Source: Acanthococcus lagerstroemiae (Eukaryota; Arthropoda; Insecta; Hemiptera; Eriococcidae). Taken from it: a stretch of 64,000 nucleotides of DNA. Below the pieces are notes generated by a model that was not told the DNA's origin, did not search any database, and saw only the letters and a list, made by a program, of their open reading frames with translations. Position numbers and translations under genes: made by a program. Location of the stretch: contig JAJSSI010000017.1 of assembly GCA_031841125.1 (NCBI GenBank), positions 166,213 through 230,212 of the forward strand, in the 5' to 3' direction. How positions within the stretch are numbered: position 1 is the first letter of the stretch; each line of letters begins with the position of its first letter. Shown here one piece after another: positions 51,072-54,074 of the stretch.

Positions 51072-54000
51072 ATGCTCGGCAATGACGCGCGATGTCCCGG
51101 CTGCAAAGCGTGCGGCGGCAACGATCACGCTCGAGCGTCCTCGTCGAAATGCGCCAAACGTATTCTACGTCAAAAGGATCGATTCGTGTCTACGTTGTCG
51201 ACATCATCGTCGCCCTCTTCGTCGACGAACAAAAAATACGAAGAACGAACGTGTACCGTGAAAATGGGTTTGCGCAAATTTATCGCCGACGAGGCGATAC
51301 GTCGACGCATCGAGACCGACGTGCTGGAGGTATCCTCCCTCATGGAGGAGGCGTCGCTCTACTGGAATCATCGTTTCGCTCGACTTTTGTACGCCGCCGC
51401 AGCAGCAACTGCTGACACCGCCGCCACTACTATTGCCGGCGGCAACGAAGACGTTAGCGACTCCGCTAATAGCGACAACGACGACGACGACCATCGCTAC
51501 CGCCGCCAACTACTGGCGGCGACGTATACGCGCGGTCATTTGCTCGACGCGTACTATCATTTGCAGGGAAAACGACAGAAACGCGAACGTTTGCCGCTAG
51601 ACGAATCGTATTTCGCGTTACGCTCGGATCCCGGGAAATTTTACGACGGCACGCATCGCACGTACCTCGTGCAAAATGCCGCCAAGCAACACGAGACGGC
51701 GATGAAGAATTGCGTGCTCGTGCACTTGTACGCGCGCGTCGTCAAGTACTTTGCGCACAAATGGAGCAGCAGCGGCGGCGGTTGTGGCAACAGCGACAAC
51801 GGCGACGGTATCTCTGCCACCGGCGTCGTTGTCGATAAACGGCAATGGAGATCGATCGTGCGCGAAGAATTATTCGCGGCCGATTTTGTTGGTCCGGCGC
51901 GCCGCGAAACCGTTGACTTTTGGACGACTTTCGGTTTCGCCTACGGCACGAAACTATCGAAATTCAACAAGAACAACGACTGGTGGTCACTCGTGCCGTT
52001 CTCGTTCGCGCTCGGCCGTTACTTCGCCTCGTCGGGTCTGCGCTCGTTCAATTTGTTTCCCGTCTTCTCGTCGCAGCGCAAACACGTCCTGTACAATACG
52101 AGCGCGTTCTACGAGCTGTTGCGCGCCAGCGGCGTGCCGCTGGCGTGCGGCGGCAACGCCGTGGAATTTCGTCGTCGTTCGCCCGAATACTGGTGGACGT
52201 ATTGTCGACTCGACAAGCGGCGGCGTTACGGCGCGTTGTCGTACAACGTCGACGACGAGCGCAACAGCGAGAAAGGTGGCGGCGCCGCTGCCTTACTACC
52301 GATCATCGAACAGCCCGGACGTACGCGTTTCGCGATGTCTTTCAGCACGAACGGCATCGATTGTTCCATAAGATTGATACGTAGATGTCGTCGTCGCAAC
52401 GACGACGACGTTGGCGTTGATGATGATAACAATAATGACAACAACAACGACGACGACAACGACTACGATATCGATTATCGATCGGCGAAAAAACGAAAAA
52501 TATCAAAAAACACGCGATCGAAGAAGACGACTACGCCTAAAAATCCGTCTACGGTGCCGGTGTCGCGGCCAATATTATTATCATCATCATCAGCAGCACC
52601 GTCGACATCTCGGCGGATCGACTTTGATAAATACGCGCGCATCGTCGGCGTGGATCCGGGCGTCGTGAATTACGTGGGCGCTTGCACGATCGATCGATCG
52701 ATCGTCGATGACTACGACGACGACGACAACGACGTTACTGTCGTTAACGATAATTCCATCGTCGCCACTACGGATAAGAACGACAACGACGACGATGATG
52801 TCGCAACGTTATCGCTACAACCACAACGACGACGAATAATAGAGACCAATAGCGTGCTTCGTACCGACACGTATCGGCAACAATATTGCGGAGAACGCGC
52901 GCGCAAACGTAAACTCTCTACGCTGGACAAGAAGTTGCGCGCCGACGAGGAGGCTTATCGTCGTACCGTTGTCGCTGCCGCGGTTATCAATCGCAATAAT
53001 ACCAATAACAATGACAACGTCGTCGTCGTCGTCAACTTCGACAATCTCGATAGTGTAGCAGCAACGACGACGACGACGACGTCTCCTCGTAGTAGTAGTA
53101 GTAGTAGTAGTAGTAGTAGTAGTAGTAGTAGTAGTAGTAGTAGTAGTAGTAGTAGTAGTAGTAGTAGTAGTAGTAGTAGTAGTAGTAGTAGTAGTAGTAG
53201 TAGTAGTAGTAGTAGTAGTAGTAGTAGTAGTAGTAGTAGTAGTAGTAGTAGTAGCAACACATTGAGTCACAAAATCGCCGCAAACTTTCGCGATATCGAG
53301 GATTACACGCGCTATCGGCTGATGTTTTTCGAGAGACGCGCCGACGTGTATCGCGCGAAACGCAACTATTGCCGCTGGTCCAAGTGGGACAGCTACATCG
53401 AGCGCAGACGCGCCGAAGACCGACTGGTCAATTATTACGTGCCGCCATCGCCGTCGTCGACGACGACGAATAAAACTCTCGTGTGTTTTGGCGACGGATC
53501 GTTAAGGCAGGGCGTGTCGTACGGCGGAAAACAACGACCGGCCGTCGAGCGGCTGCGACGAGCGTTTGCTCGATGGCGACGAGAACGACGCTACGACGTG
53601 ATCGACGTCGACGAATACAAGACGACGAAAATGTGCTCGAGATGTAACGTCACGGAAATGTCGCTACCACCCAAAATCGTATACGGTAACGATAGCGACG
53701 ACATTGAAGAAGATGAAGCTGAAAGGAGCGGCGAAACGACGACAAACGCGATAAAGAAGCATCAACGACGACGAGGACGATGCGCCTACCACCGATTTCA
53801 AATTTGCCCAAATTGCGCGATCGTGTGGAATCGCGACGTCAACGCCGCTCGCAACATCGTCCTCGTTGCGCTGGGTCTCGTCGATTATCGCGACACCGCT
53901 AACGTCGCCGCCGCCGCGGCAGCAGCAGCAGCAACGAAAACAATAACAACAAGAACTACTGTAAATAGCGTTAACGCGATAATAGCGAGAGATCAGTTTG

Positions 54001-54074
54001 TTGGTCTCTCGGAATTTCGAACGATTCGTTCGGAATTCGTAACTCTCGGCTATCGTTCGCGTGTCGCGCGGTAG
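51072..54074 (+). CDS. Fanzor/TnpB-like RNA-guided endonuclease, copy 2 (full length)
   Basis: The complete 1000-residue copy. N-terminus: a CPGCKAC cluster with further Cys and His (8-27), then a helical region and the conserved block RTYLVQNAAKQHETAMKNCV onward. RuvC-I GVDPGVVN has D528; DEYKTTK has E848; the zinc ribbon is CSRC (855-858) plus CPNC (912-915); RuvC-III NRDVNAARN has D922. All expected catalytic and metal ligands are present, so it looks active. A Ser run of 55 residues (54 AGT codons and one AGC, 53091-53255) sits between RuvC-I and RuvC-II, where copy 1 has only RSSTCGGSN. The rest is near-identical to copy 1, same orientation, about 51.5 kb apart. Known Fanzors occur in eukaryotes and their large DNA viruses; the target and guide here are unknown. 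Confidence 0.92.
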   Translation: MLGNDARCPGCKACGGNDHARASSSKCAKRILRQKDRFVSTLSTSSSPSSSTNKKYEERTCTVKMGLRKFIADEAIRRRIETDVLEVSSLMEEASLYWNHRFARLLYAAAAATADTAATTIAGGNEDVSDSANSDNDDDDHRYRRQLLAATYTRGHLLDAYYHLQGKRQKRERLPLDESYFALRSDPGKFYDGTHRTYLVQNAAKQHETAMKNCVLVHLYARVVKYFAHKWSSSGGGCGNSDNGDGISATGVVVDKRQWRSIVREELFAADFVGPARRETVDFWTTFGFAYGTKLSKFNKNNDWWSLVPFSFALGRYFASSGLRSFNLFPVFSSQRKHVLYNTSAFYELLRASGVPLACGGNAVEFRRRSPEYWWTYCRLDKRRRYGALSYNVDDERNSEKGGGAAALLPIIEQPGRTRFAMSFSTNGIDCSIRLIRRCRRRNDDDVGVDDDNNNDNNNDDDNDYDIDYRSAKKRKISKNTRSKKTTTPKNPSTVPVSRPILLSSSSAAPSTSRRIDFDKYARIVGVDPGVVNYVGACTIDRSIVDDYDDDDNDVTVVNDNSIVATTDKNDNDDDDVATLSLQPQRRRIIETNSVLRTDTYRQQYCGERARKRKLSTLDKKLRADEEAYRRTVVAAAVINRNNTNNNDNVVVVVNFDNLDSVAATTTTTTSPRSSSSSSSSSSSSSSSSSSSSSSSSSSSSSSSSSSSSSSSSSSSSSSSSSSSSSSSNTLSHKIAANFRDIEDYTRYRLMFFERRADVYRAKRNYCRWSKWDSYIERRRAEDRLVNYYVPPSPSSTTTNKTLVCFGDGSLRQGVSYGGKQRPAVERLRRAFARWRRERRYDVIDVDEYKTTKMCSRCNVTEMSLPPKIVYGNDSDDIEEDEAERSGETTTNAIKKHQRRRGRCAYHRFQICPNCAIVWNRDVNAARNIVLVALGLVDYRDTANVAAAAAAAAATKTITTRTTVNSVNAIIARDQFVGLSEFRTIRSEFVTLGYRSRVAR
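53091..53255 (+). repeat. (AGT)54 poly-Ser codon expansion
   Basis: Fifty-four perfect AGT codons and a final AGC, in frame within Fanzor-like copy 2. The equivalent site of copy 1 (about 1674-1695) has only a few imperfect units, so the expansion happened after the duplication. Confidence 0.98.

Follow-up and report, generated by a model that had tools for sequence, protein, structure and literature searches.

The 64,000-nucleotide (nt) stretch of contig JAJSSI010000017.1 from the Acanthococcus lagerstroemiae assembly analysed here (hereafter the window, on whose numbering all coordinates are given) contains two copies, A and B, of a gene for a Fanzor1-type nuclease. We consider it probable that these copies belong to a non-autonomous DNA transposon of the kind known as Fanzor1 from insect viruses, about 3.3 kb long between its candidate ends and bearing the Fanzor1 nuclease as its only gene, which is present twice in a nudivirus-like genome. 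The observations on which this reading is based are the protein family, the two copies, a common right boundary just past the stop codon, a ratio of nonsynonymous to synonymous substitution (dN/dS) below 1 in the protein core, and a stable predicted RNA fold.

Copy B had been described in an initial annotation, made from the letters alone, as a full-length Fanzor-like open reading frame (ORF) at 51072–54074 on the forward strand, and a single frame is indeed open at exactly these coordinates for 1000 codons (1000 amino acids [aa]; protein P0001). The same annotation had listed a complete set of RuvC and zinc-ribbon residues and had proposed a profile search. In Pfam, PF07282 (Cas12f1-like_TNB) matched residues 838–929 of P0001 with 34.8 bits, above the cut-off of 26.3 (E = 1.8e-8). 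The listed residues are all present and invariant in the alignments A1 (4 sequences) and A2 (11 sequences): D528 of the RuvC-I motif DPG (codon at 52653–52655), E848, the rearranged RuvC-II glutamate located six residues before the first zinc-finger cysteine (53613–53615), D922 of RuvC-III in the stretch NRDVNAA (53835–53837), and the zinc-ribbon cysteines C855, C858, C912 and C915 (53634–53816), all on the forward strand. In SpuFz1, the segment that phmmer placed opposite E848 is DEYKTS. Excerpts of PMC10711439 give as the RuvC fingerprint of Fanzors a DPG at RuvC-I, a glutamate that precedes the first zinc-finger CxxC by exactly six residues, and an aspartate 4–8 residues after the second CxxC. 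DPG is found in copy B (D528-P529-G530) and also in copy A, E-x6-CxxC occurs as EYKTTKMCSRC from E848 in copy B and identically in copy A, and in P0001 the second CxxC (C912–C915) is followed by six residues and then by D922, within the fingerprint. A Fanzor/TnpB motif given in an excerpt of PMC3627910, D-X(125,275)-[TS][TS]-XX-C4 zinc finger-X(5,50)-RD, has a first spacer whose range includes copy A (268) and the compact metagenome relative P0002 (183), whereas copy B (322) falls outside it, partly because of a poly-serine run of 55 residues (residues 674–728; 53091–53255, forward strand). This run is encoded by a perfect trinucleotide repeat (53089–53254, 55.3 units), and no serine run in the listed part of copy A exceeds 3 residues. 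The region 51072–54074 was confirmed to encode a Fanzor1-type nuclease in which the RuvC and zinc-ribbon residues are intact. At their N-termini, before the main part of the Fanzor protein, copy B (51102–51152) and P0002 have in common a cysteine-histidine motif, CKxCGGxxHxRASSxKC, which is perhaps an added zinc knuckle.

The assignment to Fanzor1 came from structure and from profiles. In a structure comparison, the matches of the predicted model of P0002 to experimentally determined Fanzor1 structures ranked far above the remaining rows, the modelled fold being nearer to these than to the structures of Fanzor2 or of TnpB. A Fanzor1 profile match was obtained indirectly, by hhalign of A5 against A6 (99.9%, E = 1.2e-32) and of A6 against SpuFz1 (5.2e-38); direct comparison of P0001 with SpuFz1 by phmmer gave only E = 0.0012. 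The profile-search value of 5.4e-42 in PDB depends on the distant rows, and neither the own-clade profile (A5) alone nor P0002 alone found a Fanzor in PDB at E up to 1. Six distant Fanzors (P0006–P0011) were admitted at E up to 1, two at about 1e-4 and the other four at 0.013 to 0.83; all six were kept because each has DPG and E-x6-CxxC, and four of them passed the PF07282 cut-off (P0010 and P0011 did not). Other assignments were rejected: the NCBIfam TnpB family scored 19.9 bits, far under its cut-off of 100, PADLOC returned weak Cas12 matches only (best 3.9e-5), and an IS607/Fanzor2 origin was discarded because the Fanzor ORF leaves too little space next to it to accommodate a recombinase gene and because the structure of Fanzor2 scored lower.

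The initial annotation had treated this gene as a lone one and had overlooked the second copy, at 3–2528 on the forward strand, with which 51072–54074 shares its right end. Copy A is open at the left edge of the window and runs for 841 codons before its stop (its listed part, from 150, is P0004). It aligns with 51397–54085 in two blocks of 89.5% and 89.0% DNA identity, split by the trinucleotide repeat of copy B. In both copies the homology ends 11 nt past the stop codon, and the flanks beyond differ. Over a core of 504 of the 826 aligned codons, from which low-complexity parts were excluded by hand, dS was 0.103, dN 0.028 and dN/dS 0.274 (bootstrap range 0.159–0.465); over all 826 codons, dN/dS was 0.369. 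The ratio is uneven along the gene, sliding windows varying from 0.06 to 2.78. Since the core ratio is below 1 and the sliding windows have this spread, it is the Fanzor protein as a whole, and not every part of it, that has been under selection since the copies separated. Where the ORF overlaps the guide RNA, a suppression of synonymous substitutions was looked for and was not seen for residues 946–1000 taken as a whole (dS 0.26); the last 97 nt alone are 96% identical between copies.

The ends of the element were then delimited on the forward strand. The right terminal repeat lies at 2522–2536 in copy A and at 54068–54082 in copy B, where it overlaps the stop codon. Directly outside are TTAA in copy A (2537–2540) and CTAT in copy B (54083–54086). 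The inverse of the right end was found once in the window, at 50801, about 260–270 nt upstream of the copy B ORF. It defines a candidate left terminal inverted repeat at 50798–50812, with 12 nt exact and 13 of 15 positions matching the right end, directly outside which is TTAG (50794–50797); the left end of copy A lies beyond the window. Insect-virus Fanzor1 elements have, according to excerpts of PMC3627910, inverted 13-bp repeats at their ends and 4-bp target site duplications of the form TTAN, and both TTAA of copy A and TTAG of copy B fit TTAN. When 2000 pairs of stretches were drawn at random from the window, 30 had an inverted match of at least 12 nt, so that the repeat is weak taken alone. 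No exact TTAN duplication was seen at copy B, with TTAG on the left and CTAT, not its exact duplicate, on the right. The inverted repeat is convincing only jointly with its position and the TTAG just outside it. The Fanzor ORF accounts for 3003 of the 3285 bp or so between the candidate ends of copy B, too much for a transposase gene to fit in as well. Scans of viral contigs (with P0001, P74, alignment A1 and the P74 alignment A3) and of genome contigs (with A5 and A3) confirmed no relative, and consequently provided no empty site or second family of ends for comparison. An exact 16-base pattern of the right end did match three viral contigs and was taken as chance.

The right ends of both copies are predicted to fold into the same kind of RNA, a three-stem scaffold at 2440–2540 in copy A (-49.0 kcal/mol, z = -6.46) and at 53986–54086 in copy B (-46.3 kcal/mol, z = -5.57), both on the forward strand and the latter overlapping the 3' end of the ORF. 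Each of these stretches is the 3'-terminal 101 nt of its copy, counting the flank, and was compared with 200 shuffles. Stretches of 121 nt without the flank gave z values of -4.09 and -4.21, and for all four right-end stretches every one of the 200 shuffles folded less well. The outside TTA of copy A pairs with an internal UAA in the third stem of the 101-nt fold; in its 121-nt stretch without flank the lowest-energy fold pairs the third stem differently. The scaffolds of the two copies differ by four substitutions that break no pair and change one U-A to U-G, and one pair is lost in the flank. Substitutions that preserve the fold in only two copies, with no compensatory change among them, are consistent with an RNA scaffold and are not proof of it. 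Rfam gave no match at gathering scores within the window. The 18–20 nt beyond the scaffold differ between the copies and represent two candidate guides, at 2541–2560 (copy A) and 54087–54106 (copy B, in the flank of the insertion site), on the forward strand and placed according to excerpts of PMC10711439. With up to 2 mismatches allowed, that of copy A matches nowhere else in the window, whether 15, 18 or 20 nt are compared; that of copy B matches nowhere else at 18 or 20 nt and has several near matches at 15 nt.

By analogy with established work on TnpB and Fanzor, the right end of the transcript would be processed into a guide RNA consisting of the three-stem scaffold (with the terminal repeat and TTAN-like flank in it) and about 15–20 nt of adjoining DNA. 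Loaded with this guide, Fanzor would cut the same site wherever the element is absent, in a replicating sister genome or in a co-infecting relative, and repair from the element-bearing genome would keep or spread the element. Each copy would in this way guard its own site, and any move to a new site would depend on a transposase provided in trans. The initial annotation had called the nuclease probably functional; for this the intact residues, the core dN/dS below 1 and the stable predicted right-end fold give indirect support only. It is conceivable, and in our estimate improbable, that two copies with two guides constitute a two-site RNA-guided homing system of the virus which, in mixed infections, would cut relatives lacking the element and carry itself, together with neighbouring core genes in the repair tracts, into them. 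If this were true, the copies would shape recombination and competition among nudiviruses. The two copies also make the targets of a viral Fanzor directly testable, since the candidate guide of each predicts one exact target.

The genome carrying the element, described in the initial annotation as that of an insect/crustacean-type virus, is nudivirus-like by its P74, as judged from sequence. P74 (PIF-0) is encoded at 8038–10239 on the forward strand (PF08404, E = 1.2e-38; PF04583, E = 5.3e-36), and its closest named relative is P74 of Phenacoccus solenopsis nudivirus (43% identity, 98% coverage, E = 7.6e-197); the other named relative is a protein annotated in the aphid Melanaphis sacchari (90% coverage). 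This placement was made by similarity of one gene, P74, with 8000 candidates scored. PIF, P33 and DNA polymerase genes had been named as neighbours of the Fanzor gene. P74 is clear, and two others were recognized under the Pfam cut-offs: a P33-like Erv1/Alr protein, the left neighbour of copy B (48962–50611, forward strand; PF04777, E = 1.3e-4, 22.7 bits against 27.6), and a PIF-5 (E56)-like protein (44550–46196, reverse strand; PF04639, E = 6.6e-5, 22.8 bits against 28.9). The polymerase was not found: there was no family-B match in the 27 ORFs scanned of 66 listed, where a diverged one could escape, and no [YFLV][GACS]DTDS motif in the six frames of the window, which a much diverged polymerase could also evade. 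An early-type promoter (TATA box and CAGT, 50939–50974) was rejected, since 20 simple shuffles averaged 1.85 such matches and the window has one. Elsewhere in the window, a 1499-aa protein (10596–15095) with AAA_30/AAA_19 matches (E = 5.9e-8 and 2.7e-7) is possibly a viral helicase. A gene-poor stretch contains a giant nested palindrome (16912–18421) with main arms at 17090–17551 and 17772–18233 (462 nt, 100% complementary), inner arms at 17554–17651 and 17700–17797 (98 nt, 100%) and outer arms at 16912–17087 and 18238–18413 (176 nt, 87%); the region holds four copies of GCGTGACGTCACGC and may represent either something akin to a replication origin or an artefact of assembly. There is a second perfect trinucleotide repeat at 7869–7945 (25.7 units), and imperfect tandem repeats lie inside ORFs at 58265–58458 (period 87 nt) and 40089–40231 (period 69 nt).

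Three other explanations were weighed against a mobile Fanzor1 element. The virus might have domesticated the Fanzor, now immobile and with its guides fixed where they are useful, and might employ this nuclease to attack co-infecting viruses or host DNA. The core dN/dS below 1 between the copies, the catalytic residues intact in both and the location of the Fanzor among virus genes would all agree with this, but a recently moving element would show selection equally, and the common right boundary with different flanks and the candidate inverted left end are what is expected of a mobile element. Moreover, neither candidate guide has a further match in the window at 18–20 nt with up to 2 mismatches, and we regard domestication as unlikely. 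The imperfect ends, with no exact target duplication at copy B, could instead point to a passenger, that is, a transposon copy acquired from an insect host or from a different virus that has since fallen silent or is decaying; the poly-serine run of 55 residues inside the protein of copy B only and the lack of room for a transposase gene (ORF of 3003 in about 3285 bp) would also fit such an origin. A decaying copy is at odds with two ORFs that are both open and keep the key residues, with the core dN/dS of 0.274 and with scaffold changes between the copies that preserve the fold, so that little weight is given to this explanation.

Finally, the sequence might be that of a virus integrated in the insect genome, into which a host transposon encoding the Fanzor had jumped. 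One of the two named relatives of P74 is annotated in an aphid assembly (Melanaphis sacchari). Across most of the 64 kb, however, one large ORF is succeeded by the next, unlike in an old integrated copy as far as the listed ORFs show, and this explanation is considered the least probable of the three. A non-autonomous Fanzor1 transposon resident in a nudivirus-like genome is the reading that we favour. Its interest lies in the good preservation of the element, with two open copies whose different flanks provide two candidate guides, with similarly folding right ends and with a protein core under selection.

Among sequence relatives, the closest are the metagenome proteins P0002, P0003 and P0005 (43–45% identity to P0001 in the alignments), which come from contigs of less than 3 kb at the longest and have neither the poly-serine run nor the C-terminal tail of about 40 residues that P0001 has. 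The characterised Fanzor1 nucleases SpuFz1, GtFz1 and PpFz1 (PDB 8gkh, 9cer, 9cf0 and related) are fungal or algal and 15–18% identical. The top viral structural match of both models in BFVD was a 'Transposase' of Tipula oleracea nudivirus, A0A0B4VG12 (E = 9.5e-22 for P0001 and 6.6e-27 for P0002), of 642 aa against the 1000 aa of P0001, with 16–20% identity over the alignment and a TM-score of 0.26–0.54; a granulovirus relative, A9YMP5, also has low identity (16% with the P0001 model and 21% with that of P0002). A nudivirus protein of such a fold has thus already been recorded under another name. No paper on nudivirus Fanzors was found in the open-licence literature searched, though the Tipula oleracea nudivirus protein is named in a public database, and excerpts of PMC6004678 report no nudivirus TnpB.

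The initial annotation, which knew of no described role for a Fanzor in this class of virus, had overstated the surprise. Besides the nudivirus 'Transposase' match, Fanzor1 was already tabulated in 2013 in ascoviruses, baculoviruses and white spot syndrome virus (WSSV): Table 1 of Bao and Jurka (PMC3627910, excerpt) lists WSSV, two granuloviruses, two nucleopolyhedroviruses and two ascoviruses. The novelty is modest, this being a good new example of a viral Fanzor1 element and not a new kind of thing. As described in excerpts of PMC3627910 and PMC10711439, the insect-virus elements SFav-1, HVav-1, HAgv-1, PUgv-1 and HAmn-1 and that of SfAV (Spodoptera frugiperda ascovirus) are alike in having a single Fanzor1 gene and no transposase, short inverted ends, flanking TTAN, and one or two copies per virus genome; the present element agrees with them in its single Fanzor1 gene, the lack of a transposase and the copy number. 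The SfAV element in particular has two copies without transposase and was studied by small-RNA sequencing in infected larvae, and the right-end RNAs of insect-virus Fanzor1 elements resemble the fold predicted here in shape and arrangement, with three stems that incorporate repeat and flank (PMC10711439, excerpt). In comparison with this set as described there, the element reported here has no exact TTAN duplication at copy B, resides in a nudivirus-like carrier and encodes a larger protein, of 1000 aa with low-complexity inserts.
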